DNA of 27,008 nt from a virus. A program made the translations under genes and the position numbers. Under the pieces are notes generated by a model. That model did no database searches. It was not told the origin of the DNA and saw nothing but the letters and a program-made list of their open reading frames with translations. Of the stretch, positions 4,969 to 21,483 are shown in pieces (within the stretch, counting starts at the first letter, position 1; each line of letters starts with the position of its first letter). Location of the stretch: the IMG/VR virus record IMGVR_UViG_3300006754_000129, positions 1-27,008 of that record; one strand, written 5' to 3'.

Positions 4969-4983
4969 CAAATTGTTATAGAG
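4961..4983 (+). repeat. Repeated phage palindrome, copy 2
   Basis: Arms CTCCATAACAA and TTGTTATAGAG. The inner pair that is G-C in copies 1 and 4 is A-T here, a compensatory change. The left arm contains the terL stop codon. The right arm ends in GAG, part of the portal Shine-Dalgarno sequence, with the portal ATG 6 nt further on. Confidence 0.8.
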
Positions 4984-4989
4984 AAGATA

Positions 4990-7101
4990 ATGTCATATCC
5001 TACAGCGCAGGACCTGAGAGTACAGTACTGGCAAGGGCAGATTGGCTTTGTGCAGAAGAAAGTGAAGCCGTTGTTCGATGCCTGTAATGTGCTCGTAAAT
5101 CAGTTTTATAATGAAGCGACCACTGAGCGGGAACAGGATGTGGGAGATGCGGAAGAGGAACACGTAAGGCGTGTTAAGAGTGGCTTGATTCATGGTTTTA
5201 TAGACCAGAGCCTGGCTAATATGTTAGACAGAGCTCCGACTTTTCAGTGTTACCCAGAGACTCGAGAGGCTGCGAGGACTATAAATCCTGAAGATCCGCA
5301 TAGCCCGTCTTTGGCTAATGGTGTTGCAAAGATAACTAATTACCGCTATAGGGAGACTAATCAGTTAAGGGTGGACGAGCGTGTGGCGCTTGACGCTTTC
5401 TTATTCCCTTATGGTGTGGCTAAGATTGGCTTTGAGTTGGATGTGGATGCAGCAGAGCAAGAGCTGTTGCAGGAGATGACAGTCTTGGATATGGAAGATC
5501 CATCTGAGGAGAATACGTTCCTTAAGGGTGGGATTCCTGTGAGGGTGGCAGATGGCCAGGATCATCTTTTCCACATACAGATACATCAGAATGAACTGAG
5601 ACTTCTTTTACAAGAAGATGTTAATAATGATCTTAAGGCCCTTATCAAAGAGTCTTTCATGGATCATATAAGACTTCATAAGCTTTTTCAAGATAGGCCA
5701 GCTCCTAGTGCGAATACTAATATTCATAGAGGTTCTCCTTATGCTGTTCGTTGGCAGCCAGACTTATTCTTAACAGATGCTTTTAGTCTGGAAGGGCCGA
5801 TGGATGCAAGGTGGATAGCCTTTGGTTGGGAGTTGCCTATAGATGAAGTTAGAGCGAATCCAGCTTATCAGAATATAGAGACTCTTGAGCCAAGTCGTTA
5901 TAAGGATGCTCCAGAGAAAGAAGCGGATCTTGACTCTGATGGTTTTGATGTCGTAAGAGGTTGGGAAGTGTGGGCGAGGAACTTTCCTGTAGGCAAGAAC
6001 AAGTTTAGGAATTTGTTCTTTACGATTGCCGAGGGCAGTGAGAAGTTCTTACAATATGAAGAGGAGTGGCCTTACGACAGAGTTGATAACTATCCGGTAG
6101 AGACTTTGAGTTTCCAGACTGGTGTTAGGCAATGGTTTCACAAGCCGCCGTTGCTTATGGCTGGTGGGGACACTGTCCAGGCTTTGACTAATGAGATCAT
6201 GGACTCGTTCCTTTATACTATACGGAAACAGAAGAACTTGTGGCTTGTTGATCCAGCGGCGGGTATTGACAGAGACATCCTTCAGGATATCTTGGATGCT
6301 CCAGATGGATCTATTGTAGAGGTTCCTGGTCTTAGTGAGCAAGGATCTAATGCTATTATCCCTCTTCCTTTCTTGTCTGTTCCTTCAGACAAAGGTGGAA
6401 TGTTGAATCTCCTTCAACAGATGTTCGATAGGAGCGCAGGTACTCCTCAGCCGGTGCAGCTTCCGACTGCTGAAACGGCAACAGAAGCTTCGATCATGGA
6501 GAAGAAGAATACGTCAAGGGAGAATCGGCGCTCGGCGTTGCTTTCGGAGTTTCAGGTTCGCAAGGCCAGGAAGATGTTCCAACTTGATTCGCAATTTAGG
6601 CCGGAGAAGTTATTTCTCTTGGATAAAAACGCGAATGAGTTTATTAGTCTGAGTAAGGAGCTTGCTGAAGGCGAGTACTTATTCACCATGGATGTTTCGA
6701 GTCAGTCCACTGCATTGGCTGTTGAGAGAAGTCAGTGGATGGACTTGCTAAACTTATTCGCAGGGCTTACTCCTCTTCTCACTCAAACCTACGGTATTCC
6801 TCCGAACATACCGGAGCTTGCGCGTAGACTGCTAGTGAGGGGATTTAATGAGAAAGACGTTGAAGAGATTTTGCCGATGCTTGAGAAGCAGACTCAAGAG
6901 ATGCAAGCACAAGCACAGGCAGCCGCCACGCAGGGGGAAGGCGGCACTTCGGAGTTCGCCAACCCAGAGGCCCAAGCGCTTCAGCAGGCCTTACAGGATG
7001 GGAGAGCGGCGAACGCGGGGGTAGGACCTTTAGACGCAGATAGCTTTAACAGAGATATGCCTAGTGAGGGTCAGCAGGCTGGAGAGACGGTGACAGTCTG
7101 A
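4990..7101 (+). CDS. Portal protein
   Basis: 703 aa. It would form the dodecameric ring at the capsid vertex through which DNA enters and leaves. Support: position directly after terL, a length in the range of podoviral portals of the P22 type, an N-terminal helical region, and a segment near residues 480-505 (RSAGTPQPVQLPTAETATEA) resembling the TATEA-type stretch common in portals before the long C-terminal helix rich in Glu/Arg. The last ~65 residues are low-complexity Gln/Ala/Gly (EMQAQAQAAATQGEGG). Translation probably starts at the ATG after GAGAAG, which overlaps the copy 2 hairpin. Its stop overlaps the next ATG. Assignment is by context and general pattern, without a signature motif. 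Confidence 0.82.
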   Translation: MSYPTAQDLRVQYWQGQIGFVQKKVKPLFDACNVLVNQFYNEATTEREQDVGDAEEEHVRRVKSGLIHGFIDQSLANMLDRAPTFQCYPETREAARTINPEDPHSPSLANGVAKITNYRYRETNQLRVDERVALDAFLFPYGVAKIGFELDVDAAEQELLQEMTVLDMEDPSEENTFLKGGIPVRVADGQDHLFHIQIHQNELRLLLQEDVNNDLKALIKESFMDHIRLHKLFQDRPAPSANTNIHRGSPYAVRWQPDLFLTDAFSLEGPMDARWIAFGWELPIDEVRANPAYQNIETLEPSRYKDAPEKEADLDSDGFDVVRGWEVWARNFPVGKNKFRNLFFTIAEGSEKFLQYEEEWPYDRVDNYPVETLSFQTGVRQWFHKPPLLMAGGDTVQALTNEIMDSFLYTIRKQKNLWLVDPAAGIDRDILQDILDAPDGSIVEVPGLSEQGSNAIIPLPFLSVPSDKGGMLNLLQQMFDRSAGTPQPVQLPTAETATEASIMEKKNTSRENRRSALLSEFQVRKARKMFQLDSQFRPEKLFLLDKNANEFISLSKELAEGEYLFTMDVSSQSTALAVERSQWMDLLNLFAGLTPLLTQTYGIPPNIPELARRLLVRGFNEKDVEEILPMLEKQTQEMQAQAQAAATQGEGGTSEFANPEAQALQQALQDGRAANAGVGPLDADSFNRDMPSEGQQAGETVTV

Positions 7102-7481
7102 TGCCTTTAGGATTTCTTTCAAAAGCTGCATTAAAAGTTGTTAAGGGAGGAAAAAAGAGTACTCTAAAAGGCAGAGAGATCTCTAAAGGGACTGATGTTA
7201 GGCTGAAAGAAGGTTTAGACATAGATGTTGAGCACGCTAAAGCAGTAGATAATATAAATATTGTTAATGATCTTATTAGAGAAGGGAAAAGGAAAGAGGC
7301 TAAGGAAACTTGGCTTGACCTATGGTCTGAGCCTAATCATCCTAAAGCTATAACAGAAGAGCAGCTAGAATTATCAGATGCTCAAGCTATACACTTAGGA
7401 ATAGATCCTGAGACTTTTGAAGATACTAAGGATCTTATAAAAGCTTCTGGACTTAAAGTTATAAAGAATAAAGAAGACTGA
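7101..7481 (+). CDS. Unknown 126-aa lysine-rich protein
   Basis: The start overlaps the portal stop as TGATG and the stop overlaps the next start the same way. The N-terminal ~30 residues are basic (ALKVVKGGKKSTLKGREISKG) and the rest is acidic and helical. It uses AT-rich codons, visibly more so than the portal. No family is recognised. It is the first of five unknown genes between the portal and the 1367-aa gene. The tight coupling suggests a late-expressed virion or assembly accessory protein, which is inference. Confidence 0.72.
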   Translation: MPLGFLSKAALKVVKGGKKSTLKGREISKGTDVRLKEGLDIDVEHAKAVDNINIVNDLIREGKRKEAKETWLDLWSEPNHPKAITEEQLELSDAQAIHLGIDPETFEDTKDLIKASGLKVIKNKED

Positions 7482-7654
7482 TGCCTTTTAAGAGCCAAAA
7501 TCAGCGGGCGATGTTTCATGCCGCTAAGAATGATCCCAAGCTTAGGAAGAAACTAGGACTGAAGCTTAGTGTAATTAAGAGGTTTCTTGACGAAGATCAG
7601 GGTGGAAAGCTTCCAAAAGTTTCTCGTAAGACAAAGAAAGTATTGAGTGCATAA
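7481..7654 (+). CDS. Basic 57-aa protein with MPFKSQ(N)QR start
   Basis: 57 residues beginning MPFKSQNQRAMFHAAK, then a basic helical segment (NDPKLRKKLGLKLSVIKRFL) and a GGKLPKVSRKTKK tail. The opening matches the general style of small phage proteins that begin MPFKSxxQRRFM (DUF3008-like), recalled from memory. Function is unknown. The start overlaps the previous stop (TGATG) and the stop overlaps the next start (TAATG), so translation is coupled. It probably binds nucleic acid by charge, but this is speculative. Confidence 0.72.
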   Translation: MPFKSQNQRAMFHAAKNDPKLRKKLGLKLSVIKRFLDEDQGGKLPKVSRKTKKVLSA

Positions 7655-8499
7655 TGGCTAAATTTAATTTTGCTAAAGGTGTAGAAGCTTTTCGTAAGGA
7701 GCTTGCAAAAGCTGAACTTGAAAGTCAACGTGCTCCAAAAGATAGTACTTGGAACATAAATGAGGATAAAGATGGTCTTATAGAAGCTAAACTTACTAAA
7801 AAGTATAATGGTAAGGATACGGTTATTTCTGAGCGTACGCTACGAGTAGTAGGAGGAGAAGATGGGTACGTGGAAGAGGTTATAAAGGGCGCTAATAAAC
7901 TTCCTGATCTTACTGATTCTGAGCGTAGATTTAGAAGGGTTTTAGGGGCTCAAGGTTTAGAAGAGAGAGGGCATAAAGGAGAGTCCTTAAGGGACTTTGA
8001 TCTTAGAACTTTGGAGCAACCAAAACAAGGATATATGAGCTCTTTTGCTAAAGCTGCTAAAGTGCCTGAAAATTTAGGCGGTAAAGCTGTAGAAGGGGTT
8101 AAGAGCTTAGGGCGAAAGTTAGGCTTTGGAAAAGAAGAAGATACCAGACCAGATCCTATTAAGTTTGAGGGAGCAAAAGCTCCTCCTGCAGGGGGACAAC
8201 AGGCTGGATATACTCCAGCTAAAAGAAAATTTTACTCTGCTGAGGCTGATGAATTTCCTAAAGAGCCTAAGCGAGAATCTTTGCAACAAGATCCTGCTAG
8301 GCTATCTAGGCCTGAGGAAGATAAGAAACCAGCTATAATAGAAGAACCGAAAGATAAATGGTCTAACTTCGATAAGATAGACAGATGGACTCAGAAGTGG
8401 GAAAAGGTTAAGTCTCCTGAAAGAAGAAAGAGTATCTTTGACTCTATGATAGAGGGTGAAGAAAAAAACTTTTTAGCTGATATTTGGAATTTACGATAA
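7654..8499 (+). CDS. Unknown 281-aa charged protein
   Basis: Rich in Lys and Glu, with a probably disordered Pro/Glu/Lys-rich middle (residues ~170-235, for example FPKEPKRESLQQDP and PEEDKKPAIIEEPKDK) and a C-terminal helical segment (WSNFDKIDRWTQKWEKVK). No membrane segment or known motif. Coupled at both ends by TAATG overlaps. It may be a minor virion or internal protein given its place between the portal and the 1367-aa gene. No catalytic evidence. Confidence 0.75.
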   Translation: MAKFNFAKGVEAFRKELAKAELESQRAPKDSTWNINEDKDGLIEAKLTKKYNGKDTVISERTLRVVGGEDGYVEEVIKGANKLPDLTDSERRFRRVLGAQGLEERGHKGESLRDFDLRTLEQPKQGYMSSFAKAAKVPENLGGKAVEGVKSLGRKLGFGKEEDTRPDPIKFEGAKAPPAGGQQAGYTPAKRKFYSAEADEFPKEPKRESLQQDPARLSRPEEDKKPAIIEEPKDKWSNFDKIDRWTQKWEKVKSPERRKSIFDSMIEGEEKNFLADIWNLR

Positions 8500-9305
8500 T
8501 GGCTTATTTACCAGAGACTAAAGATAAGACAGCCGTGGTTTCTCCTGCAGCGAAAAGGGTTCTTGGCCCAGAAGATCCTGCGGCGAGAGAAGAGTTCGAT
8601 GCTCAGAAAAAGAGGAAATTTGACACTTGGGATCAGATCGGCCTTGCCGCTGATATGCTCCCTGCTGGAGCTATGGCGGTTGAAGGCAGTAGAAAAATAG
8701 CAGAAACTATTTTGGAGGTTGTGCAGTCTGGTAGTGTACAAGATGCTATGAAGATTGCGGCTAGAGCTGACCAAAGTACCTTAAAGGAGGCATGGAAGCA
8801 TTTAGATAAAGCTGCTATTAAAGCGAGAATAGCTAAGCAACCAGACGCGGACGAGGTTTATGATAAGGCCAAAAAATCTATAGAAGCAGTAATGGATTTA
8901 ACTTTTGATCTTGGTAGAAAGTCCAAAGCTGATGAGCATAAAGCTGCTATTAGAAAAATGAAAAGAGAAGGAAGAAAGCCTTATGTTCCAAAGCCTTCTG
9001 TTCCAAAGAAAACTACAGACATTATGGCTACTAAGGATCTTCCTTCAGAGACCAGGATGAAGGCTAGGGATATGCCTTCTCCTTCTGGGAAGAATAGAGT
9101 TGATCAGGAGATGGTAGAAGGACTAGCAGCAGAGGTTGAGAATCTTAAGACTATGAGTGAGGATGAATTATTAGATTCTCTTTCTCCAGGCCATGATGCT
9201 CTTCTAGCTGATATGGGTACATCACCTAAAGATATTGCTTTGTGGAGACGATTGGTAGAAGATGAAATAAGAAGGCGTGGGCGGCTGGGAGACTGGGAGC
9301 CTTAA
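8499..9305 (+). CDS. Unknown 268-aa helical protein
   Basis: The start chosen is ATG 8499 (MAYLPETKDK), overlapping the previous stop as TAATG. A TTG start 15 nt upstream is less likely. The product is mostly helical and charged, with a Lys/Pro linker (RKPYVPKPSVPKKT, ~residues 160-175) and a C-terminal domain with a repeated Glu/Leu pattern ending in EDEIRRRGRLGDWEP. No signal peptide or recognised domain. Function unknown; neighbourhood suggests a virion accessory role. Confidence 0.75.
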   Translation: MAYLPETKDKTAVVSPAAKRVLGPEDPAAREEFDAQKKRKFDTWDQIGLAADMLPAGAMAVEGSRKIAETILEVVQSGSVQDAMKIAARADQSTLKEAWKHLDKAAIKARIAKQPDADEVYDKAKKSIEAVMDLTFDLGRKSKADEHKAAIRKMKREGRKPYVPKPSVPKKTTDIMATKDLPSETRMKARDMPSPSGKNRVDQEMVEGLAAEVENLKTMSEDELLDSLSPGHDALLADMGTSPKDIALWRRLVEDEIRRRGRLGDWEP

Positions 9306-9306
9306 G

Positions 9307-9474
9307 ATGCCAGGCTATGCACAGCCGGACTTGCAGTGGGACTCAGCGATGAGCGCTACTGAGATGTACCCTCCTCCTAAGAAGAAGAAAAGGCGTAGGA
9401 GAAGGAAGAATAAAATTAAGGGTATTGTGGTTCCTCCAATGACTAATAATATTGTCTCAGGAACTTATAAATGA
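9307..9474 (+). CDS. 55-aa protein with polybasic run
   Basis: The start chosen is ATG 9307, 1 nt after the previous stop; the frame could be extended upstream to a GTG, but this would overlap the previous gene by 29 nt. After a Tyr/Trp-containing N-terminus (MPGYAQPDLQW) comes PPPKKKKRRRRRKNK (residues 22-36), one of the most basic stretches in the window, then a short hydrophobic tail. Its stop overlaps the next start as ATGA. No family is recognised. The run could contact packaged DNA or RNA. Confidence 0.65.
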   Translation: MPGYAQPDLQWDSAMSATEMYPPPKKKKRRRRRKNKIKGIVVPPMTNNIVSGTYK

Positions 9475-12400
9475 CACAAGTGAATGTTAGCTCCGCTACT
9501 TCCAGAGCCATGACAGGAGACAAAGGGTCTTTTCTTGCGAAGTTAGAGACTGAGAATCCTGATAAGTATAAAGCTCTGGAGATGCTTGTAAGTGATTTAT
9601 CAAAAGGTAGTATTACGCCTGTTTTTTCTGGGTCTTCCCAAAAAAGCAAGGAGAGTCCTAAGTCTAATATAGTCCATGACTTTTTCTATAAGAGTCCTCA
9701 AGGCCTGAAAATGGGATTACAGGATATAGCGAGCTTAGTGGGAATTGCTGTAGACTGGATAGGGATGAGTACTAGTCAAAGATATGGGCCTGAAGGAAAA
9801 CAGTGGCAGGATAAATACACTCAGCCAGCTATAGATGCAGTTGTGCAGTTGGCTCCTGTTGTGGCTAGGCAGATGAAGATGGAGGCTTGGGCTCCGGGTG
9901 TTGCTTTTCCAGGAACAAAGAGTTTAGCGGAGAGGCAGCAATATTATTCTGGGGCGAAAGAAGAGAGGTCGCAGATTGCAGGGGCCTTGGCTGAGGGATT
10001 GAGAGAGGAAGTAGGGGAAAGAGGAGCTTTTGGTCTAGTTCATCCTGCAGAGATAGCGGTTGGACCTTTTGTTCCGAAGATGTCAAGGGCAGCTAAGACT
10101 ATTATCGGGGATGTTAGAGCAGGGGTTCCAGATCCTGATATTTCAGCGGCAGGGCTTTCTAGTGCTAGGGATGTAGAAGGGTTGTTGGGAGATTATCCAG
10201 TTCTTCCAGAAAGACGCGGGGGAGCTCCTGGCCCCGGTGAAGGAGATGAAGGACCTACAGGTCCCAGTGACGACATTAAAGACCTTCTTAAAAAAACCAA
10301 GGATATTAGAAAGACTAGAGAAGAAAGAGTTAAAGAGGCTATAGAAGAAGATAATAGGTCTTTTGATGAGGCTGTTGGAGAGCCTCCAAAAGATCCAGCT
10401 GACTGGCAGGGTTATGTAGTAAAGAGGGATAAGTGGCTTAGGCAAAAAGGGGAGAGGGATAAGAGAAAAAATAGTGCGAAGTACTCTGCTATGGTAGCAG
10501 CTATAGGAGAGCATCCTGGGGTAACGACTGTCAGTCCTACTAGAGAAGAGACTTGGGAATATAACAGGAGTTCTATCTTATGGCAGATAGAGAATGGGTA
10601 CCTTGATCCAGATGCTAATCCTCTTGAGAGAATGGAATACAAGGATTACTTGGGATATGACGCCCTTGACACTATAGGTATTCCAAGACAAGACAGGATG
10701 TATAAAAGGTTGGGGGATCAAGAGTTTGCCTTTTTTGATAGATTGTTTAAAGATGAGTTTATAAGAGAGGATCTTCTTTCAAAGGCCCCTAATACTACTT
10801 TGTTTGGGGGGACGCTAGTTTATGATGGGAATAACTTTAATGCTATTAGTGCTTTTTTAGATGATTTTGAGTATTCATATCCTGGTACTAGCGAGCCTAA
10901 GCCTCCTAGGTCTTTGATAAGAAGAGATCAAAGCGATGTGTCTGGGCTTATAAGGAGCCTAGAATTTGGTAGTAACACTAGGACACATCAAGAAGAGGTA
11001 GACTTTGTAGCTTCTCGTATGCCTTCCAGGCCTAGCGCTGGTGGGGAGCTTCCTATTACTGCTATTCCAGGTACTTCTAGCCCAGACCTAGAACCTAGGT
11101 ATAATAGGGACTTCGAAAGAGCGGCTCGAGGATTTCCTGTTAGCGGATGGGCACACGCCAGTATAGCGGCAGGCGGTCGTGGAGGAACGTCAGGTAGAGG
11201 GAATCTTTCCGTTGGGGGGAGATCATCGCTGTTGGGGGAGTATATACAAGGGGAAGGTACTAGCACAGGGCCTAATATAGTTAGTGATGTTGAATGGCCT
11301 ATAGAGGCTTTAGACCTAAGAACTATATTAAATCCTGATCTGGAGCCAGGAATCCGAGACGATTTTCTTGAAGAGTACAAAGAAGACTATCTTAGAATTT
11401 TAGACGAGCTAGACCAGGCAAGAGCTGAAGATATAGCTTCTAAGCAAAATCCTTATGATCCTGTGGGTAGGATGCTTAGCGATAAAAGGCAGAGATTAAG
11501 AGAGTTACTTTTAATTGATTATCCTGCTATCGGAGAGCATCTTGGGTTGACTCTTGATAACTCCTTTGATGTTCTTACGAAGGTTAGTGGGGGTATGAAC
11601 AATCCAGGGCATGTAGGAGAGGCTCTTGATTTCTTAATAGGCTCTGCAGTTGAAGACTTTAAAGATGGTATTATAAGAGAGATAAGAGATCCAATAAGAC
11701 TGCAAAGGGAAATAATTAGTAATTTAGATGGTGGAGCCCTTCGGCGATTCGCTGATAGTGTAAGAAGGCAGGTAGATAAGTATAATGATGAAGGGCCTAG
11801 AGCGGTACTATCAGGGAGTGATTATAGACAAGAAGAGCCATCGACTCGCTTACCTGCTGAAAGTCCAGAAGAGACACTACAAAGAGCTTCTGGAACGCCT
11901 CCTCAGAATTATACTATGATAGATGTTATGGGTGCTTTAGAGGCTGAGGATGTCCTTGGTTTTGATACTGCTGAGCAAGCTGGTAATGCTATACTATCTC
12001 ATCCTGATTGGGAAGATAGGTGGGAGATAGTAGACCCAGAGAATCTGGAGATACTAAGACAGTATTATGCTGGGCGTATATCATCTGAAGAAGGATCAAG
12101 CTCTCCTAGTCCTTCTGCTACTAATCTGCAGAGAATGGCAGACGTTATATCAGATTATGTCAGTAGTGAGATTCCTTCTACTCTTATAGATAGGCTGTGG
12201 GCTGTTTTTATGCCTTCAGACAATCCGATCAATAATGCCCTTGATAACATTAGATTAAGGGTAAGAGATGGAGAGCCTATCACTGTAGATGTCTTATCTG
12301 ATATGATAGATGAACTAGAGCGAGATCGTGCTGGCGAAGATGCGGAAGGCCTACAAAGTTCAGCCGCTCTTGGAGTAACCGAAAGTGCTGATATAAGGCG

Positions 12401-13574
12401 CGACTGGCTTGACGCTGTAGCACAAAGATTATCAGAACATGGGACCATGTCTATCAGAGATGCACAAAACGGTCTTATTAGTATTTCTGTGGAGGCCCAG
12501 GACAGGCTAATAGACGCCCTAGCCAGAGGGGCAGATACTGGGCAGCAAACTACCCCACAAGAGCTTTTTGATATTCTTAATGATGCTTACCGGTCTAGAG
12601 ACTATTGGTGGAGAGCTGGTATGAGTAGGTCTCATGAATCTATGGGACAGGCCGATATAGAGCCTCCTGAGGAGCTTGGTAGACCGTTATCTGAAATGAC
12701 GGAGGAAGAGATAAGAGATCTTAGGCTTAATGAAGTAGCTGAGAGGTTGTCAGAACATCCTTCTGCTGGGACAAGCTCTGCCAACTTGGGCATTTCAGCT
12801 CATATGACTTCAGATGAGATAAGGTCTTACCTTGAAGATTTTTCTTTGGAAGAGCAGGATAGATTAATAGATGCTTATCTTCAGGGGAATACTACTGGAG
12901 CGCCCGTAACTCCTCAGGAATTATCTGCGATTCTTTTTGATTTGGAGGCGCAAGGATCGATAGGGCAAAGGGACATTGGTGAAGATCCAGTTGCACAGAG
13001 CCAAACAACCCTTGATGACATGTACCAACGAGACGCTCGAAGAAACGCTAGCCTCGTGTCTGATTGGATGGCATCAGACGAGCATGTTGATTTAGTAGGG
13101 CCTACTATAACTGATGCTGGCATACATGAGTTTGGTAGACACCCTGTGGAAGGTCCTCTACAGGAAATAGACTGGGCAAGTGGAGCAACTACGCAGAGGG
13201 AGTATGTGTCTTTTTGGGATCAAATACCTGAAGTAGAGAACCTTGATGCTGCAATGCCTCGATGGAATGATATAGCTTTAAATAATCTAATGCAGTATGT
13301 TAGTACTTTCATTGATTTTCCTGGTGTTACTGATATGGCTCCTAACTATCCTACAGATAGTAGAGCCTATGCAAAAGTTAACCAAGATTTTATTAAGAAT
13401 AATCAGGATTGGGATAGTAAGCTACTCGGTGCGGATGAAGAAGGTTATGGTCTTGGCTTTGGAGACTTGTCTGAGACTTGGGGAGAAGGAGAAGAACAAG
13501 TAAAAAATAGAGCTAAGGCTGTGTCAGTTATCAATGAGTGGCGCAGAAGGCAACTGGGAGGGAATGATTTCTGA
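9471..13574 (+). CDS. Unknown 1367-aa protein with internal duplication
   Basis: The largest complete gene here, with an ATGA overlap upstream and a TGATG overlap downstream. It is a soluble, acidic, mostly helical-looking protein. Near the N-terminus a hydrophobic stretch (LQDIASLVGIAVDWIGM) may be a buried helix. Residues ~245-265 are a Gly/Pro/Glu linker. Two related units occur at about 978-1040 and 1084-1160, each with V-A-x-R-L-S-E-H, then Q-D-R-L-I-D-A, then T-P-Q-E-L-x-x-I-L. No nuclease, lysozyme, polymerase or protease motif is seen. Size and position among virion genes suggest an internal or ejected virion protein, though podoviral ejection proteins usually lie after the coat gene. 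Function unknown. Confidence 0.85.
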   Translation: MTQVNVSSATSRAMTGDKGSFLAKLETENPDKYKALEMLVSDLSKGSITPVFSGSSQKSKESPKSNIVHDFFYKSPQGLKMGLQDIASLVGIAVDWIGMSTSQRYGPEGKQWQDKYTQPAIDAVVQLAPVVARQMKMEAWAPGVAFPGTKSLAERQQYYSGAKEERSQIAGALAEGLREEVGERGAFGLVHPAEIAVGPFVPKMSRAAKTIIGDVRAGVPDPDISAAGLSSARDVEGLLGDYPVLPERRGGAPGPGEGDEGPTGPSDDIKDLLKKTKDIRKTREERVKEAIEEDNRSFDEAVGEPPKDPADWQGYVVKRDKWLRQKGERDKRKNSAKYSAMVAAIGEHPGVTTVSPTREETWEYNRSSILWQIENGYLDPDANPLERMEYKDYLGYDALDTIGIPRQDRMYKRLGDQEFAFFDRLFKDEFIREDLLSKAPNTTLFGGTLVYDGNNFNAISAFLDDFEYSYPGTSEPKPPRSLIRRDQSDVSGLIRSLEFGSNTRTHQEEVDFVASRMPSRPSAGGELPITAIPGTSSPDLEPRYNRDFERAARGFPVSGWAHASIAAGGRGGTSGRGNLSVGGRSSLLGEYIQGEGTSTGPNIVSDVEWPIEALDLRTILNPDLEPGIRDDFLEEYKEDYLRILDELDQARAEDIASKQNPYDPVGRMLSDKRQRLRELLLIDYPAIGEHLGLTLDNSFDVLTKVSGGMNNPGHVGEALDFLIGSAVEDFKDGIIREIRDPIRLQREIISNLDGGALRRFADSVRRQVDKYNDEGPRAVLSGSDYRQEEPSTRLPAESPEETLQRASGTPPQNYTMIDVMGALEAEDVLGFDTAEQAGNAILSHPDWEDRWEIVDPENLEILRQYYAGRISSEEGSSSPSPSATNLQRMADVISDYVSSEIPSTLIDRLWAVFMPSDNPINNALDNIRLRVRDGEPITVDVLSDMIDELERDRAGEDAEGLQSSAALGVTESADIRRDWLDAVAQRLSEHGTMSIRDAQNGLISISVEAQDRLIDALARGADTGQQTTPQELFDILNDAYRSRDYWWRAGMSRSHESMGQADIEPPEELGRPLSEMTEEEIRDLRLNEVAERLSEHPSAGTSSANLGISAHMTSDEIRSYLEDFSLEEQDRLIDAYLQGNTTGAPVTPQELSAILFDLEAQGSIGQRDIGEDPVAQSQTTLDDMYQRDARRNASLVSDWMASDEHVDLVGPTITDAGIHEFGRHPVEGPLQEIDWASGATTQREYVSFWDQIPEVENLDAAMPRWNDIALNNLMQYVSTFIDFPGVTDMAPNYPTDSRAYAKVNQDFIKNNQDWDSKLLGADEEGYGLGFGDLSETWGEGEEQVKNRAKAVSVINEWRRRQLGGNDF

Positions 13575-13993
13575 TGCCTGTTTATAGTTTTGAATGTTTA
13601 GATTGTGGAAAGAAAGATGACGTATATAGAAAAGTGGATGACAGAGGCAATCCGGTCGAATGTCCGTGCGGAAAGAGGATGAACCGAGTGCCCGAACGCT
13701 TCACTGCAGATACGTTTGAGCCTTACTATGACGAAGGTCTTGGGAGCGATGTCTATTCTGCCCGTGATAAAAAGGCTATTATGAACCAACTGGGAGTGGT
13801 TGAGGCTGGAGACCAAGTTGGAGGATCTAGGATTTTCGATGATAAGAATCCTAACCTGATAAAGAAGCAGCCGCCGATTGGCAAGCGAAAAAAGATGCCT
13901 AAGGCCTTTGATGATGCTGTTATAGAGGTTTCAGACGCGGAAGGGCGTACTGTTTCCAGAGAGATTTCTGGAGAGATTCCAGGGTATGATTAG
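13574..13993 (+). CDS. FmdB-like zinc-ribbon protein
   Basis: 139 aa. It opens MPVYSFECLDCGKK, typical of the FmdB/zinc-ribbon regulatory-protein family, with Cys8-x2-Cys11 and a second knuckle Cys30-x-Cys32-Gly (CPCGKRM). The second pair has one residue between the cysteines, where the family usually has two. The remaining ~100 residues are charged and unassigned (KKQPPIGKRKKMPKAF). It starts at an overlap with the stop of the 1367-aa gene. Similar zinc ribbons occur in other phages near terminase, portal and head genes. The role is unknown, possibly assembly or regulation of late genes. It is the last gene before the second structural block. Confidence 0.8.
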   Translation: MPVYSFECLDCGKKDDVYRKVDDRGNPVECPCGKRMNRVPERFTADTFEPYYDEGLGSDVYSARDKKAIMNQLGVVEAGDQVGGSRIFDDKNPNLIKKQPPIGKRKKMPKAFDDAVIEVSDAEGRTVSREISGEIPGYD

Positions 13994-13994
13994 G

Positions 13995-14021
13995 AACTCT
14001 GTAACAAATTGTTATGGAGAA
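13995..14021 (+). repeat. Repeated phage palindrome, copy 3
   Basis: Arms AACTCTGTAACAA and TTGTTATGGAGAA around a central A. Two inner pairs are G-U and U-G wobbles, so the fold would persist in RNA although the DNA palindrome is imperfect. It begins 1 nt after the stop of the zinc-ribbon gene and 78 nt before the scaffold start. A second small stem (GGAAGA-ATTG-TCTTCC, 14033-14048) follows. Confidence 0.8.
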
Positions 14022-14961: not shown

Positions 14962-15945
14962 ATGGCTGTCGGAGATGGCGCACCTACGATTGTCTGGGGA
15001 CCGTTACTTTCCTCGACAATTATGAATTACCTGGACTCGGGCATGCTTCGAGATCAGGTACATAAGCGTAGCCCTTTCTGGTCGTGGATCAGGGAAGGCA
15101 ACCGTATCAAACGACTCACCGGTGGTGAGCGTATCAAAGTCCCGGTTATGTATGAAGGTAGTGGGAACTTCAAGCGCTATTCAGGGCTTGAGGCTCTTGA
15201 TCCTACCGGGTACGAAGGAATCACGAATGCCTTTTTCAACTGGAAACAGGCAGCGACTAGTGTCGTGATTTCTGGTCTTGACAAACGTTCGAACCAGGGT
15301 GAAAGCCGTATTCGTGACTTGACGAAAGACAAAATCTTTCAGGCTGAGTCCACGTTGGCGGATAACTTGGCTTCGGATGCTTACAGCGATGGCACTTCCA
15401 ACGGCTCGAAGCAGATTACGGGCCTTAAGGCTATGGTTGACGGGACTCCTGCCACTGGCACTTACGGAGATATTAACTCCGCTAATAACAGTGCTTGGCG
15501 GAATAACGCTACTACTGGTGTTGGTAATGGCGCTGTCAACTTGCTTCCGAACTTGCGTACGATCTATAACGATTGCACGGAAGTTGCCGGTGTAGAGGGC
15601 GAGCCTGATGGTATCTTTACCACTCAGTCTGTTGCTGAGACCCTGGAATCCTTGGTTGTTCCTGCTATTCGCTATACTGGCGGTGGCACGAGTGATCTGT
15701 CTAGCCGCCCGACTTTCCGTGGCGCTAGCATTAACTGGGAGTCGAAGGTTGACTCGGGTTATCTGTATGTCCTTAACTCGAAGCATATCTTCGGTTTTGT
15801 CCATCGTGACGCTGATTTCGCTATGGCTGATGGTGGCTTGCAGAACCCGGTGAACCAGGATGCCTTTATTGCTCCGATCTTGTATCAGGGTAATCTGGGT
15901 ACTAATCTTCGCAGTGCCCACGGCGTCCTTCAGGGGATTACCTAG
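14962..15945 (+). CDS. Major capsid protein
   Basis: 327 aa coat protein candidate, probably of HK97 fold. Supporting features: position after the scaffold; an N-terminal arm followed by a helical region (LDSGMLRDQVHKRSPFWSWI); a central segment GLKAMVDGTPATGTYGDIN with the following WRNN, a pattern shared by several phage coat families; and a C-terminal beta-rich part (SGYLYVLNSKHIFGFVHRDADF). The codons differ from those of neighbouring genes: third positions are visibly richer in C and G, as expected for the most strongly expressed gene. AAGAGG lies upstream of the ATG. A 246-codon minus-strand frame within it is a by-product of this codon use. Confidence 0.88.
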   Translation: MAVGDGAPTIVWGPLLSSTIMNYLDSGMLRDQVHKRSPFWSWIREGNRIKRLTGGERIKVPVMYEGSGNFKRYSGLEALDPTGYEGITNAFFNWKQAATSVVISGLDKRSNQGESRIRDLTKDKIFQAESTLADNLASDAYSDGTSNGSKQITGLKAMVDGTPATGTYGDINSANNSAWRNNATTGVGNGAVNLLPNLRTIYNDCTEVAGVEGEPDGIFTTQSVAETLESLVVPAIRYTGGGTSDLSSRPTFRGASINWESKVDSGYLYVLNSKHIFGFVHRDADFAMADGGLQNPVNQDAFIAPILYQGNLGTNLRSAHGVLQGIT

Positions 15946-15960: not shown

Positions 15961-16245
15961 ATGGCAGCGGGAGATATTACCTACGATACCAGTCCTGTGA
16001 CTAGGAGAGGCAATCGTAATGTTGTAACTGGGACTTTAGAGGCTGACACTACTTTAAGGACTTTTGCAGTCTTAGGTACTGGAAGCCGTATAATGAATGC
16101 TCAGTTCACTTGCGATCTTCCTTCTGGTGGTACGACTGTTCAAGCTCGTATTAATCAAATTGCAGATACTACTGCAACAAACGGAAGTGTAGCTATAGAC
16201 ACTGGTGCTGCAGCTACTCTTCGTTTTGCAATAGATTTTGTTTAG
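15961..16245 (+). CDS. Small beta-rich protein after the coat gene
   Basis: 94 aa starting MAAGDITYDTSPVTRRGNRN. It is dominated by Thr, Val, Ala and Gly in alternating patterns suggesting a small beta sandwich (VVTGTLEADTTLRTFAVLG), without charged helices. AAGGAG is well spaced before the ATG, 15 nt after the coat stop. Small proteins just after the coat gene are often head decoration or cement proteins. That role is plausible here but not shown. Confidence 0.75.
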   Translation: MAAGDITYDTSPVTRRGNRNVVTGTLEADTTLRTFAVLGTGSRIMNAQFTCDLPSGGTTVQARINQIADTTATNGSVAIDTGAAATLRFAIDFV

Positions 16246-16260
16246 GAGGAAAAAATACTC

Positions 16261-16755
16261 ATGTTTATGCAGACTGTAAATCGTTCGGATACTGAGCGTG
16301 TTTGGGTGAACTTCACTAACAGTGATGGTTTAACTATTACAGCTCATTATCCGGTTGTTAAAATTCTCGGTAATACCGCTAGCATAAGTACTAATGAGGC
16401 TGCAACAAAAGCTGCAACCTTTGGTTATGCTGGTCTTGGAGGCGGGAATATTATTGGCCTGGCTTATGAGGATGTCGCTAATAACGATGTCGGAATTGCT
16501 CAGGTGTATGGGTACCATGAGAGTGCTTTAATTGCTCCTCTTGCTGCAGCTGTTACAATCCGTCCTGGTTATGGAATGACTTATGACCTAACAACTCTTG
16601 GATTGAATAGTGTTGGTGCCGATTTCAATGGTCCTATTGTTGCTCTGGATACTATTGGAGGTGGAGCAACTTCTGGTAATGGATCTCTTTTGAGTGCTAA
16701 TATTGCTACTGCTGGTCAGGCTTATGCTGATCATGTATTTATTAGGGCTATGTAA
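16261..16755 (+). CDS. Beta-rich probable head protein, 164 aa
   Basis: Starts at ATG 16261 after AGGAGG, with a second in-frame ATG six bases on. It is rich in Gly, Ala, Thr and Val, with beta-like segments (GLTITAHYPVVKIL, AAAVTIRPGYGMTYDL) and a Gly/Ser-rich C-terminal loop before YADHVFIRAM. No signal peptide. Position after the coat and the 94-aa protein suggests a capsid decoration protein or head fibre base. It ends immediately before palindrome copy 4 and the terminator-like stem, so it closes the head block. Confidence 0.75.
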   Translation: MFMQTVNRSDTERVWVNFTNSDGLTITAHYPVVKILGNTASISTNEAATKAATFGYAGLGGGNIIGLAYEDVANNDVGIAQVYGYHESALIAPLAAAVTIRPGYGMTYDLTTLGLNSVGADFNGPIVALDTIGGGATSGNGSLLSANIATAGQAYADHVFIRAM

Positions 16756-16782
16756 AACTCTGTAACATATTGTTACGGAGCT
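16756..16782 (+). repeat. Repeated phage palindrome, copy 4
   Basis: Core arms CTCTGTAACA and TGTTACGGAG around TAT, with one T-G wobble. It starts directly after the TAA of the 164-aa gene and precedes the sugar cassette by 66 nt. Confidence 0.8.
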
Positions 16783-16784
16783 GT

Positions 16785-16824
16785 GGGGGAGGGTCACTGC
16801 CTCCTTTGGTTAAGACCCTCTCCT
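16785..16824 (+). terminator. Terminator-like stem between head and sugar blocks
   Basis: An 11-bp stem with two G-U wobbles (core GAGGGTC pairing with GACCCTC, extended by GGG/TCC) around an 18-nt loop, followed by the weak T-rich run GCATTTATT. The short, interrupted T tract suggests partial termination or an mRNA-stability hairpin rather than a full stop. Confidence 0.45.
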
Positions 16825-16847
16825 GCATTTATTAAAAGGGGCTGGAA

Positions 16848-17093
16848 ATGTTTGGATGGCTTAAACCCCATGATGGAAGAGATACTAAGGATAAACTAGT
16901 TAGATGTTCCTGTAATCGAATTATGTGGCTGTTAAGTTCAGATAATAATATTAAGCGTCATCATATAGGACATCAATTTAAGGTTGTAGAAACTGGCACT
17001 ATGTGGGAATTTTTTAAGATGAGAACAGGGCTTATTAGGTATAGAACTTTAAGTGAGCGGCTTAAAGACTTAATGGAGAGAAGGGACAAATAA
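16848..17093 (+). CDS. 81-aa Cys/His protein, possible zinc finger
   Basis: Starts at ATG 16848 after AAAAGGGGCTGGAA. Residues Cys20-x-Cys22 and, 15 residues later, His38-His39 with His42 form a CxC...HxxxH arrangement that could bind zinc. The C-terminal half is basic and helical (RTLSERLKDLMERRDK). Its stop overlaps the start of the first glycosyltransferase (TAATG), making it the lead gene of the sugar cassette. No family is recognised. It could be a regulator or partner of the cassette, or simply share its transcript. Confidence 0.7.
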   Translation: MFGWLKPHDGRDTKDKLVRCSCNRIMWLLSSDNNIKRHHIGHQFKVVETGTMWEFFKMRTGLIRYRTLSERLKDLMERRDK

Positions 17094-17974
17094 TGAAATT
17101 AGTGTTAGGTATGCCTTGGTATACAGGGCCTGATGATAATACTTTTCCACTTTATTTTGATATGATGATGTACTTTGGTGCGCTTCGTGAGAGAAGTTTA
17201 TGGGTACACGAGATGATGCCTAAAATTGAAAACTTAGATTTTCTTCCTAGTTTAGAAGAAACTGGGTATGATAAAGGCTTGGCTGATCCTACAATAGAAG
17301 AGTGGCAGGATATAGAAAAATTAGAGATCTATATAGTAAATTACAGTCGTACTTCGTTAGTTGGGGTGGCAAGAGAGAGAATAGTAGATGTAGCTATAGG
17401 GATAGATGCTGATTATCTCTTTTGGTGGGATGATGATATGAGGTTTGAAAAAGATGCTTTTCTTCGCCTATGGAGGCATCAAAAGCCCGTAGTAAGTGCA
17501 TTAGCCTTTAGTGCTAGAGATCCTATTTTTCCTGTTATTTTTCGGTTAACAGAAAAGTGGGATATTACGAATAATGCTAAGGTTGTTGAAAAGAATGAGA
17601 TATTACTAGACTATCCTAGAGATCAGTTAATTGGAAGTTCTAGTATAGGAGGGGAGCTTGCATTAGGAGCAGCTGTATGTCTTTATAATATGAATATATT
17701 TAAAGAAATTCCTAAGCCATGGTTTGCCAGTACTGGATGTGGAGAAGATTATTTCTTTAGTTATAGGTGCAAAGAGTTTAGTATAGAGAGATGGATGGAT
17801 ACTGGAGTTAAGACTGAACATCTACACCATGCACCTAGGTGGTGTAATGAAGACGCGTACTGGGCTAATAGACAGCATAATCATGATGACTATGTTAAGG
17901 AATTTGGAGATACGCTAAAAGATATGAGGAATGGACAAGTTGTAGTGACTAATGAAAAGGGGGTTGCTGTATGA
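17093..17974 (+). CDS. GT-A type glycosyltransferase
   Basis: 293 aa. It opens with a beta strand (MKLVLGMPWY). The sequence DYLFWWDDDMRF carries Asp113-115, the DxD-type metal and sugar-nucleotide site of GT-A enzymes, then AFSARDP. GCGEDYFF (215-222) provides the likely acidic catalytic or acceptor residues, and EHLHH (242-246) resembles the late His motif that completes the metal site. It is expected to transfer a sugar from a nucleotide donor in the host cytoplasm. Substrate unknown. Coupled to both neighbours by TAATG and ATGA overlaps. Its codons are strikingly AT-rich compared with the coat gene. Confidence 0.85.
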   Translation: MKLVLGMPWYTGPDDNTFPLYFDMMMYFGALRERSLWVHEMMPKIENLDFLPSLEETGYDKGLADPTIEEWQDIEKLEIYIVNYSRTSLVGVARERIVDVAIGIDADYLFWWDDDMRFEKDAFLRLWRHQKPVVSALAFSARDPIFPVIFRLTEKWDITNNAKVVEKNEILLDYPRDQLIGSSSIGGELALGAAVCLYNMNIFKEIPKPWFASTGCGEDYFFSYRCKEFSIERWMDTGVKTEHLHHAPRWCNEDAYWANRQHNHDDYVKEFGDTLKDMRNGQVVVTNEKGVAV

Positions 17975-19218
17975 AGAACCTTCTTACTATAGTTATACCA
18001 ACTTGGAATAATCTTGATATGCTTAAGATATGTATAGAGTCACTTTTTCTTAGTACTAAGTATCCTTTTGAAGTTATTGTAATTGATAATGGAGGAAAAA
18101 GTGAAGTGGCTAAGTCTTTGCCTGACTCAGCTAAAGAGTATGTAAAAGTTATAGAGCCTGAAGAAAATTTAGGATGGATGAAGGCACATAATTTAGCTCT
18201 TGAAACAGTTGAGACTCCTTACTATTGTTTGCTAAATGATGATGTTATTTTTATTCCTGCACAGTGGGATTTTTGGACAAAGCTTATTTCGCACTTAAAA
18301 GATAATGTGGTAGCTGTTGGGCCAGGAAGTAACTTTGTTGCAGGTAATCAAAGTATTCAACGTACTGATGTTCCTTTAGTCTGTGATAGTAGTTTTTTGA
18401 TAGGCTTTTGTATGGTTATTAGAACAGATATATTTAAGGAAATTGGAGGCCTTGATGCTGAGTTACCTGGAGGTGATGATTTAGATCTTAGTATTCGTTT
18501 AATAAAGGCTGGTTATAGTATAAGAATAGATAGAAGAGCATATCTTCATCATCATGGGCAACAGACTGGATTAAGGGTTCATGGAGATGATTGGGATTCT
18601 AATTGGAGTCAAGAAGTTACTAATAATGCTCTTATTTCTAAGCATGGTGTGAGAGCTTGGCAAGAATGTATCTTGGCACATTGGAAATATCCTAAAGAAT
18701 GGGATCTGGATAAACCTCTTCTTACAGAAGAAGATTGGTATAAGGAGCTTCTTAAACCTTATAATGGGGCTTCTGGTCTTAATATAGGTTGTGGAGGGAG
18801 AAAGTTAGAAGGGCCTATAGGAGTAGATATAAGAGATGCTGGAGAGTTAGGTGAGGGAGGTGAAAGATTAGGAGAGGCATTAACTGACATAAAGGCAGAC
18901 GCTACAAGTGTTCCTCTTGATGATGAGAGTCAAGAATATATAGTAGCAGCTCATATATTAGAGCATTTAATAGACCCTTTTGCTGCTTTGATTGAGTGGA
19001 ATAGATTGTTAGTTCCCAAAGGAAAGTTATTTTTAACTATTCCTAACCATGAAACATCTAATACTATAATATTAGACTATACACATCTTCATGCTTTTAA
19101 TAAAGATAGTTTAGAGCGGCTAGTAAAAGTTAGTGGTTTTGATATAGATTCTATAGAAAGTGAAACTCTTAATAATATTAGGTTAGTTTGTCATAAAGTA
19201 TCGGAGGTTTTGGCATGA
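17971..19218 (+). CDS. Glycosyltransferase 2 fused to methyltransferase
   Basis: 415 aa, two domains. Residues 1-~235 are a family 2 GT-A glycosyltransferase: LTIVIPTWN (5-13), VIVIDNGG (35-42), the DxD-equivalent LLNDD (87-91), and GGDDLDLSIRL (167-177) with the catalytic-type Asp/Glu position. After a linker (~240-265), residues ~268-410 form a class I SAM methyltransferase: NIGCGG (271-276) for SAM binding, VDIRD (285-289), KADATSVPLDD (308-318) and AHILEHLIDP (327-336), as in the Methyltransf_11 group. The natural reading is that one protein adds a sugar and methylates it or an adjacent one. Starts by ATGA overlap. Both active sites look intact. Confidence 0.88.
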   Translation: MKNLLTIVIPTWNNLDMLKICIESLFLSTKYPFEVIVIDNGGKSEVAKSLPDSAKEYVKVIEPEENLGWMKAHNLALETVETPYYCLLNDDVIFIPAQWDFWTKLISHLKDNVVAVGPGSNFVAGNQSIQRTDVPLVCDSSFLIGFCMVIRTDIFKEIGGLDAELPGGDDLDLSIRLIKAGYSIRIDRRAYLHHHGQQTGLRVHGDDWDSNWSQEVTNNALISKHGVRAWQECILAHWKYPKEWDLDKPLLTEEDWYKELLKPYNGASGLNIGCGGRKLEGPIGVDIRDAGELGEGGERLGEALTDIKADATSVPLDDESQEYIVAAHILEHLIDPFAALIEWNRLLVPKGKLFLTIPNHETSNTIILDYTHLHAFNKDSLERLVKVSGFDIDSIESETLNNIRLVCHKVSEVLA

Positions 19219-20138
19219 AAAGTCCAGGACTTCTCTATAACGCTGAAGTTAGAAATAATGGCACAGCTAGAAGAGTAACAGATACTTTATATAGAATGGG
19301 GTATAAAGAAACAGGTATGGACCGCTATAACAGGCCTTGGTATGTACAGCCTGATTTTAGTAAGCACGACTTTTGGCTTTATATAGATGATGGAAGAGAT
19401 GAGATTGATATGCCTGATCTTCCTAGTCCTAATGCTTGCTGGCTAGTGGATACTCATCTTGGATATGAAACTAGGTTAAAGTGGGCTATGCACTTTGATC
19501 ATGTTTTCTTATGTCAGAAGTCTGATGTTGCAAAGATGAAGTTAGATGGAATACAGAATGTTCACTGGCTTCCATTAGCTTGTTATCCTCCTGTAGATCC
19601 TAGCTATGCAGAGTTTCAAAATAATAGAGCTGATATACCTAAAGAATTTTTCGGATCCTATGGACTTCAGAAGCTCCATGATGTAGCTTTTGTTGGTCAT
19701 CTACCTACTAGTAATAATCAGATAGAAGGATCAAACAATAGAATAGATTATTTAGATGTAATATTTAAGAACTTTCCTAACAGTTGGTTTGCTTATAATG
19801 TATTCTTTGAGCAAGCTGCTTTGAGATATGCTAGGGCCAGAGTTGGCTTTAATATCTCTATTAGAGATGATCTTAACATGAGATTCTTTGAGGTTCTTAG
19901 TTATGGTAATTGTCTTGTTACTAATAGAGATGTAGTTGGCTGGGATGATCTGGGCTTTTCAGAAGGTGAACATTTCCTCGGTTACGAGGGGGAGGAGGAA
20001 ATGGTAGATAAGATTCAGTGGGCTTTAGATAATCCTATGGAGCGAGAGAAGATAGCAAAAGCAGGGCATGAGAAGGTAAGAAGCGCTCATACTTATGAGC
20101 ATAGAATTAACGAGATGTTAAACATAGTGGGAGTTTAA
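19215..20138 (+). CDS. GT-B type glycosyltransferase (CgeB/GT4-like)
   Basis: 307 aa, related to the glycosyl transferases group 1 / CgeB-like family. N-terminal half: FWLYIDDG and an AFVGH strand (158-162) starting the second Rossmann-like domain. C-terminal half: ARVGFNISIRDDLNMRFFEV with LSYGNCLVTN (208-237), the donor-binding region with the family's conserved Arg-Phe-Glu and Gly. It has no signal peptide or membrane segment, so it probably acts in the cytoplasm. Coupled to the fusion enzyme by an ATGA overlap, it is the third transferase of the cassette and would extend or branch a glycan begun by the others. Acceptor unknown. Confidence 0.85.
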   Translation: MKSPGLLYNAEVRNNGTARRVTDTLYRMGYKETGMDRYNRPWYVQPDFSKHDFWLYIDDGRDEIDMPDLPSPNACWLVDTHLGYETRLKWAMHFDHVFLCQKSDVAKMKLDGIQNVHWLPLACYPPVDPSYAEFQNNRADIPKEFFGSYGLQKLHDVAFVGHLPTSNNQIEGSNNRIDYLDVIFKNFPNSWFAYNVFFEQAALRYARARVGFNISIRDDLNMRFFEVLSYGNCLVTNRDVVGWDDLGFSEGEHFLGYEGEEEMVDKIQWALDNPMEREKIAKAGHEKVRSAHTYEHRINEMLNIVGV

Positions 20139-20140
20139 GT

Positions 20141-20803
20141 ATGACTACGCAGATTGATCTAAATAAAGCGTGGAGTGAGACTACAGCTGGTACTGGGTCT
20201 GGGGCAACAGCTACTCACGCCGCGGAAAGTGGAGTGTCTCATGTTATTACTCATATCTCTGGGCACTCAGATAAGGATGCTACTCTTCAGTTAAAAGATG
20301 GAAGTACTGTTATAGGAGAATGGGCACTGTCTCCGCCTTTTTCATTCTTACATTTTGATGATGATGTAGCTGGGACGAAAGTTCTTCTTAGGTCTGGAGA
20401 TACATTAATAAATTCTATAGATATGCACAATACTACAGCAGCAGATGCGTTTCTTTTGCTTTTTGATGCGGCTGCTACAGGGGATGTGAACTTGGTTGCT
20501 AATGGGGGTAGTGCAACTGCTAGGAATTATGTAATTCCAGCTACCGCTAATGCTACAGTCGGGAGAAGTTTTTCTGTGCCTCTTTTCTTTACATTAGGAG
20601 TTGTTTACGTGTCTGTTACAGCTACAGATGGAGAGACAGGAGCGGCTCAAGATGTATCTATAGGCTACTCAACATCTAAGCACTCAGCATCTGAAACTTC
20701 TCAAAGTGGTCTTTGGATAGGTACTCCAGGGAATACTGTAAGTGCAGTTATTTCAAGCAGTACTTCTGATTGTCAAGTAAACATTGCAGGTTTTAGTATA
20801 TAA
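20141..20803 (+). CDS. Beta-rich probable virion protein, 220 aa
   Basis: Begins 2 nt after the third glycosyltransferase. Two beta-rich halves: residues ~1-100 (HVITHISGHSDKDATLQLKD) and ~115-220 (YVSVTATDGETGAAQDVSI). It is very rich in Ser and Thr (for example TSKHSASETSQSG), which would offer O-glycosylation sites. Being in the same transcript as the three transferases, it is the most obvious candidate acceptor, but this is inference. It could also be an ordinary decoration or tail accessory protein. A remnant-like version of the phage palindrome follows its stop. Confidence 0.72.
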   Translation: MTTQIDLNKAWSETTAGTGSGATATHAAESGVSHVITHISGHSDKDATLQLKDGSTVIGEWALSPPFSFLHFDDDVAGTKVLLRSGDTLINSIDMHNTTAADAFLLLFDAAATGDVNLVANGGSATARNYVIPATANATVGRSFSVPLFFTLGVVYVSVTATDGETGAAQDVSIGYSTSKHSASETSQSGLWIGTPGNTVSAVISSSTSDCQVNIAGFSI

Positions 20804-20826: not shown

Positions 20827-21483
20827 ATGCCAGTTTTACTAGATATCAATAAGGAAGTTGAAGTTGAGACTAAGGATTATGAAAAGGGTGTTCCTCTTCA
20901 ACTGACGCCTGAACAAAAGGGCGAAGTAGTGATGACTAAGTATGTCAGTACTAATAACCTGGTGGCGGATTTTCAGCCGGAAGGTGAGTGGGTCTTTCAG
21001 GTTACTTCTGACGTAGGTGGAGGTAATCGGAGGGAAAGGCTTTTAGTCGGCACAGAAGGAGAGCCTCGAGGACTGCAAATAGATGATGGAATATATGCAA
21101 CTCTTGTTGGGACTATGGACGGGCTTATGGGTATTCTTCCAGGCCGCCCTCCCATGAATGAGGCTGAAGTAGATGCTTATGCAGACCAAACAGGCGAGAA
21201 TGTTCCTGTGTTTCAGCAATGGAACTTTCGCGTAAAGGAAGCTTTCATAACTAACGGTCCTGAAGCCAGAGCGAACTTGGCCCGTAGCGAAGATCAAAAG
21301 AGAGCCTCAAGCCAGGCCGATATGTACTCTGCGTTTTCTGATATGTATCAGGCTGGAACAGAGCAACAAGCAGAGCTCTTTGGGCAGATGATGGAGTTCT
21401 TTAAGAAGAATGCTGGGGATGACGGATCTCCTTCTATGGAACAAGTAATCAACTCGGCTAAAGGGGCCAGTAAGGAGAAGTAG
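20827..21483 (+). CDS. Unknown late protein, 218 aa
   Basis: Begins MPVLLDINKEVEVETKDYEK with GGGAG 9 nt before the ATG. The first ~140 residues look like a mixed alpha/beta domain (YVSTNNLVADFQPEGEWVFQ). The C-terminal ~70 are helical, Gln/Met/Ala-rich and probably coiled or disordered (QADMYSAFSDMYQAGTEQQA). No known family is recognised. Its place between the sugar cassette and the adaptor suggests a minor head-tail or tail assembly protein. Confidence 0.72.
   Translation: MPVLLDINKEVEVETKDYEKGVPLQLTPEQKGEVVMTKYVSTNNLVADFQPEGEWVFQVTSDVGGGNRRERLLVGTEGEPRGLQIDDGIYATLVGTMDGLMGILPGRPPMNEAEVDAYADQTGENVPVFQQWNFRVKEAFITNGPEARANLARSEDQKRASSQADMYSAFSDMYQAGTEQQAELFGQMMEFFKKNAGDDGSPSMEQVINSAKGASKEK

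Follow-up and report, generated by a model that had tools for sequence, protein, structure and literature searches.

The window analyzed here is the whole 27,008-nt stretch of viral DNA of IMG/VR record IMGVR_UViG_3300006754_000129 (all positions are window positions, and the genes from the coat gene to the adaptor gene lie on the plus strand). Within its structural operon it carries a cassette encoding a small Cys/His protein and three glycosyltransferases (GTs), which belongs to the standard content of this operon across an uncultured family of phages whose coat protein is of the Mx8 type. The cassette probably supplies the enzymes of an island for glycosylation of the capsid surface, in which methylation is optional and in which g164, a predicted capsid decoration protein encoded directly upstream, would be the likeliest acceptor. 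As had been described in the original prediction, five closely chained genes are present: those for the 81-aa Cys/His protein g81 (16848-17093), the 293-aa GT-A-fold glycosyltransferase GTA (17093-17974), a 415-aa fusion of a GT2 glycosyltransferase with an S-adenosylmethionine methyltransferase (GT2, 17971-19218), the 307-aa CgeB-type GT-B glycosyltransferase GTB (19215-20138), and the 220-aa protein g220 (20141-20803). The first four are joined by overlaps of 1, 4, and 4 nt, and g220 follows GTB after a gap of 2 nt.

The earlier assignment to three enzyme types, namely GT-A, GT2-methyltransferase fusion, and GT-B, was borne out by Pfam matches and by a structure model of GTA. In one half of the 415-aa protein Pfam detects Glycos_transf_2 (PF00535, E 6.6e-16, 59.1 bits with a cut-off of 23.3) and in the other half Methyltransf_11 (PF08241, 1.7e-07, 32.2 bits, cut-off 21.2), and GTB matches Glyco_trans_1_2 (PF13524, 5.4e-24, 85.2 bits, cut-off 25) and shows a conserved alignment with its homologs. 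GTA has no significant Pfam match, nor did comparing its profile with that of the GT2 enzyme give one, and structure prediction took the place of that comparison. The GTA model, built from 35 homologs, reached a predicted local distance difference test score (pLDDT) of 87.5 and a predicted template modelling score of 0.87; its closest solved fold is STIV A197 (Z 16.6 over 174 residues, 17% identity), followed by LH3 (Z 15.9), COLGALT1 (13.8), and Mimivirus R699 (13.5). A D-x-D metal/donor-binding motif is present, with D113 and D115 invariant across the 35 homologs, and GTA is confidently modelled as a GT-A enzyme, with sugar transfer as its predicted activity. PDB sequence searches with GTA and GTB profiles yielded nothing significant. 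In g81, C-x-C and H-x3-H residues are conserved among homologs, and the protein is a possible zinc knuckle. In two related loci with other enzyme sets (L060:7013-7270 and L077:9430-9720; loci are designated by L numbers), the enzyme genes are likewise accompanied by one for a small zinc-ribbon-like protein rich in Cys, which may correspond to g81.

With the coat and GTB proteins, and alignments built on them, as queries, about 140 viral loci were collected, of which many overlap. Among 70 loci that contain both the coat gene and g218, 46 carry g81, GTA, GT2, and GTB in the same order, a fraction biased upward by the fact that loci were found partly via GTB itself; this conserved synteny agrees with the earlier statement that the cassette sits inside the structural operon. 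The other 24 comprise one locus with three enzymes and no detected g81, 18 with GTA and neither GT2 nor GTB, and five matching none of the models. The GTA-only loci form one clade (support 98/93), and among the five, L077 and L078 encode a GTA-type protein (phrog_1574, 7e-12) and a methyltransferase, and L083, L085, and L086 encode no GT. Selection on the cassette genes is purifying, the ratio of nonsynonymous to synonymous substitution rates of the enzymes being 0.02-0.24 in computable pairs. Given this selection and the recurrence of the gene order in those 46 loci, the cassette is not a chance arrangement. Isolated phages gave no DNA match to the region from coat gene to g220, and one partial protein match to GTB. 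The Mx8-type phages Mx8, Mx9, ppBjS10J-1, ctMlz233, and BUCT555 belong to the same coat family and have their head genes in a broadly similar order, but in all five isolates checked the coat gene is followed by structural genes (in BUCT555 by lysis genes as well) and not by a GT cassette, and their coats are only about 26-37% identical to that of the window. GTB shares PF13524 with other CgeB-type GT-B enzymes, but its relatives in bacterial genomes are mostly just 27-35% identical; one at 50% lies on a 3-kb contig of a Bacteroidales bin, which is too short to prove a host.

The coat gene (14962-15945) forms the conserved left flank of the island, and its product is assigned by sequence to the Mx8-type major capsid proteins (phrog_9953, 2.9e-49; by tblastn E 1e-27 with Mx9 and 2e-17 with Mx8). 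It is followed by the gene for the small capsid-side protein g94 (15961-16245), the most variable gene of the island, which is 19-34% identical in pairs whose coats are 97-98% identical, and by the g164 gene (16261-16755). An AlphaFold model of g164 (pLDDT 72) retrieved as top PDB rows almost exclusively phage capsid decoration proteins, with Z scores of 11.2 for HFTV1, 9.8 for FCWL1, 9.3 for T1, and 9.2 for both XM1 and Pam3, and a capsid-decoration fold is therewith predicted for g164. A profile-profile comparison of g164 with Mx8 p49 gave no significant match.

Between near-identical phages, the stretch from g94 through g164 and the enzymes to the position of g220, hereafter the slot, is exchanged as one block. 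Loci L004 and L019 are 98-100% identical in the left-hand genes g139, g289, and coat and 100% identical in the right-hand genes g218 and g332, and inside the island identity amounts to 19% for g94, 45% for g164, 46% for g81, 71% for GTA, 60% for GT2, and 83% for GTB, with unrelated slot proteins. In the pair L124 and L133 the left-hand genes are 89-97% identical, the right-hand genes 94-97%, and those of the island 34-76%. Directly after the coat gene, DNA identity drops from about 99% to values that are mostly 30-80%, and it recovers around g218. The island type of L004 is also found on L034, a contig of another metagenome, as far as that contig extends, which argues against an assembly artefact. 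In L022 and L023 the block from g94 to GTB differs (23-57% identity), with the coat (90%) and the slot protein (93%) retained, and their GTB ends in approximately 28 residues that are the same as in L004 and L019, apparently the trace of an intragenic crossover. Of 19 close pairs compared, 15 have flanks that resemble each other more than their islands do.

Variation in the enzymes follows that of the capsid-side genes, g164 above all. In partial Mantel correlations with the distances of g289, coat, and g218 held fixed and with permutation p values, g164 distances correlate with those of GTA (0.35), GT2 (0.32), and GTB (0.36; p 0.002-0.01 for the three), and the correlations of g94 with the enzymes are weaker (0.08-0.17). 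All 65 loci with a GTA model match, and in addition L077 and L078, possess a g164-type gene or an open reading frame of 150-161 aa in its place, which was verified as g164-type in L067 and L070. The GT-less loci L083 and L085 nest with the full-cassette locus L026 (support 99/97); they have lost g164 too, its position being taken by a phrog_29386 virion protein, and they keep g94 and a slot protein of the g220 outer-domain type. Although it is one event, this co-loss points to g164.

Methylation of the product appears, from the distribution of the domains, to be a recurrent and switchable feature, since methyltransferase labels changed repeatedly and other methyltransferases occur on other branches, with sister clades differing in theirs. 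Among the GT2 rows, 30 include the methyltransferase half of the fusion and 25 lack it; in the GT2 tree, which also contains some bacterial GT2s with long branches, at least six changes of this label are required by branches of good support. Many GTA-only loci encode a different methyltransferase (Methyltransf_24, some with similarity to RMNT_CmcI). Further variants of the enzyme set were seen. An expanded cassette in L042 (12159-17342, on a contig shared with L117) has, between GT2 and GTB, an additional GT2-like protein and a 389-aa fusion of a cytidylyltransferase-like domain with a methyltransferase. In the enzyme region of L077 (6905-8271), two adjacent P-loop sulfotransferase-like proteins are encoded, one recognized by a weak Pfam match (0.0012) and the other by motif, which suggests a variant with a sulfated product; L078 has the two proteins as well.

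A coherent course of events can be proposed for this island. Late in infection, the coat and the small decoration proteins would be made, and a hairpin located after the decoration gene would lower expression of the enzyme genes. The soluble enzymes would then assemble, in the cytoplasm and from host nucleotide sugars, a short glycan carried by a surface protein of the virion, most likely the predicted capsid decoration protein g164, with one enzyme adding the first sugar, the others extending it, and the methyltransferase half of GT2 methylating the glycan. With conserved coat and adaptor genes on either side of decoration genes, enzymes, and slot protein, recombination in these flanks could exchange the whole surface phenotype in one piece, and methylation could come and go with its domain. 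This proposal is favored, besides the block exchange, co-variation, co-loss, and turnover of methyltransferases described above, by the identities of the enzymes, by the lack of clear membrane helices in them, by their position directly after the predicted decoration gene, and by the nearest GT-A folds of GTA (STIV A197, LH3, and COLGALT1), which act on proteins or are proposed to do so (PMC10551542). A number of points weigh against it. That a glycan is made, together with its acceptor, composition, and benefit, is inferred here from gene content, enzyme families, predicted folds, co-variation, co-loss, and block exchange, which are what the computation shows; the g164 model is of moderate confidence, with a best Foldseek E of 0.005 and none below 0.001; enzymes and g164 were lost together only once; the related loci L129, L132, and L136 show no raised divergence in the island; the coat also retains partial correlations with the enzymes (0.23-0.35); and adjacency alone might account for the co-variation of g164 and enzymes. 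We consider it a real possibility, although short of a probable one, that the island is a capsid "serotype" locus, in which a decoration protein and its cognate GTs are co-adapted and are exchanged together by recombination between the coat and adaptor genes, with methylation turned on or off, so that phages nearly identical elsewhere would display differently glycosylated capsids.

The original prediction of a multi-step methylated glycan on a virion protein thus holds insofar as a multi-enzyme, optionally methylated glycan is the best supported product, whereas its choice of the 220-aa protein as prime acceptor finds no support in synteny, recombinants, or partial Mantel correlation. That g220 is the acceptor seems improbable to us, although its gene is adjacent to the enzymes, is translationally linked at a distance of 2 nt, and encodes a protein with 25% Ser/Thr; this richness, which had been pointed out before, is real but not distinctive, as the fiber has 24% and g94 22%. 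The g220 protein is a composite, exchangeable part, with an outer domain into which an inner domain is inserted, and it is uncoupled from the enzymes. The outer part alone (about 108 aa) occupies the slot in L006, L012-L017, L036, and L041, the inner part alone (about 116 aa) in L005, L009-L011, and L042, and unrelated proteins of 89-99 aa in L003, L004, L024, and L025. L002 and the window have nearly identical enzymes, but their 220-aa proteins are just 67-69% identical. These alternative fillings and the divergence in L002 indicate that the slot is exchangeable and not tied to the enzymes, and the cassette does not travel with the 220-aa gene in related phages, as slot contents swap beside orthologous enzymes that persist. 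Conversely, L022 and L023 retain the slot protein at the 93% given above despite enzymes changed down to 43-57%. Partial correlation of the slot outer domain with the enzymes is absent (0.01 for GTA, -0.26 for GT2, -0.10 for GTB), and outer-domain proteins persist in the GT-less loci L083 and L085. Among isolated phages, no protein match to g220 was found.

If not g164 or g220, the coat or g94 might carry the glycan. In mycobacteriophages both capsid and tail tube subunits are modified (PMC12619734, PMC12363180), the coat shows the partial correlation with the enzymes mentioned above, and g94 lies inside the exchanged block. However, the GT-less loci L083 and L085 still have g94 and a related coat, and the coat stays 97-98% identical across enzyme exchange, so that we regard either protein as a rather unlikely acceptor. 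Action of the enzymes on the host cell surface, leading to seroconversion or superinfection exclusion, would agree with phage GTs known to serve that purpose and with a weak PHROG match (0.0011) that relates the GT2 half to GtrB-like proteins of O-antigen conversion. This explanation is even less probable than glycosylation of g220, as Pfam revealed no flippase-like or membrane partner, a hydropathy threshold test indicated no clear membrane helices in the cassette proteins, with borderline values only, and the cassette lies among late structural genes and is exchanged with capsid-side genes. Glycosylation of modified bases in the phage DNA can be given hardly any credence. Phage GTs able to hypermodify DNA are cited in PMC12619734, and PHROG relates the GT2 half very weakly (0.036) to beta-glucosyl-HMC-alpha-glucosyltransferase, but the cassette is located in the structural operon, and no gene of a thymidylate synthase or hydroxymethylase family was detected in 10 related records of 34-56 kb with working controls, records which may be incomplete, the window itself being a genome fragment. 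A search for TET/JBP was uninformative, its control being silent.

Virion glycosylation is established in a few mycobacteriophages, for example Che8, Corndog, and Myrna, in which phage-encoded GTs are proposed or shown to modify virion structural proteins, including capsid and tail tube subunits (Freeman et al. 2023, as cited in PMC11256854, PMC12363180, PMC12619734). Unlike in those phages, three GTs and a methyltransferase half here adjoin a predicted decoration gene in the structural operon and are exchanged with it, and the system is predicted from its genes. STIV A197, a viral GT with the closest solved fold to GTA, is essential and is proposed to glycosylate the virus coat (PMC10551542), but it is a single enzyme of an unrelated archaeal virus, and neither a methyltransferase nor a linked decoration gene is described there. 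Marine phages possess metaviromic islands, where near-identical phages diverge sharply at surface-related genes; those islands, however, are tied to host recognition through tail fibers and lectin-like proteins, and the word stem 'glycosyl' does not occur in the main text of that paper (PMC3909814). A literature search found no paper joining phage, capsid decoration, glycosyltransferase, and hypervariable. What is new is the combination of a conserved multi-enzyme set beside a decoration gene, co-varying with it across an uncultured family, which appears to maintain this dedicated set as both vary together. If capsid glycosylation is indeed its function, the capsid surface would be, besides the tail fibers, a diversifying interface in the family, and a serotype locus would be to phages what O-antigen or flagellin-glycosylation loci are to bacteria. 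The enzymes and g164 would also form a concrete candidate enzyme-acceptor pair and a potential source of protein glycosyltransferases with small defined acceptors.

Two features of the DNA that had been taken as marks of the cassette turned out to be shared with other parts of the window. The 23-bp palindrome at 16758-16780 (no strand), earlier considered the cassette's own leader, is one of five copies of CTCYRTAACA-N3-TGTTA..GAG, the others being at 2201-2223, 4961-4983, 13997-14019, and 24056-24078; about 0.01 would be expected in shuffled sequence. Copies are mostly intergenic, close relatives hold the palindrome in the same positions, L042 has nine copies, and the two arms mismatch in places, which would suit a DNA operator more than an RNA hairpin. 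Instead, the element specific to the cassette is a long G/C-rich hairpin on the plus strand (16782-16827) in the gap between the decoration gene and the enzymes (z -5.4 for the gap). Its form recurs in most relatives: hairpins of similar form and different sequence occur in all 15 relatives folded (z -1.9 to -7.0), and the long hairpin is absent from L059, L120, L129, L132, and some others. An intrinsic-terminator scan did not call it, few T being present in its tail, and an Rfam search gave no match; from its placement, which sets capsid proteins required in bulk apart from the enzymes, it probably lowers expression from the decoration gene to the enzymes. AT-rich codons, likewise proposed as characteristic, do not set the cassette apart: G+C content at third codon positions is 0.19-0.29 there and 0.21-0.25 in g94, g164, g220, g126, and g281, and it is the coat gene (0.53) that is among the outliers. 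A foreign origin of the cassette, considered on account of these codons, was rejected, as neighboring genes are equally AT-rich.

On the right, the island is bordered by the conserved gene g218 (20827-21483), whose position suggests a head-completion protein, and by the adaptor gene g332 (21485-22483; SU10_adaptor, PF24175, 4.4e-11). Downstream of g332 follow a virion structural protein and a 974-aa open frame with repeated fiber-like motifs (24087-27008), which continues past the window end; its C-terminus resembles what we take to be the start of a chaperone/peptidase S74 domain, and Pfam gave no match. Terminase genes and a 703-aa gene at the portal position lie upstream of the coat gene. 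The 139-aa protein g139 (13574-13993), encoded ahead of the gene at the scaffold position, has an N-terminal zinc-ribbon-like stretch (Zn_ribbon_8, 5.9e-07, below the cut-off). A second variable region extends from the portal-like gene to g139 (7101-13574) and includes a 1367-aa protein without family matches; L032 and the window are 92-98% identical in TerL, portal, g139, and coat, and this region between them aligns poorly.

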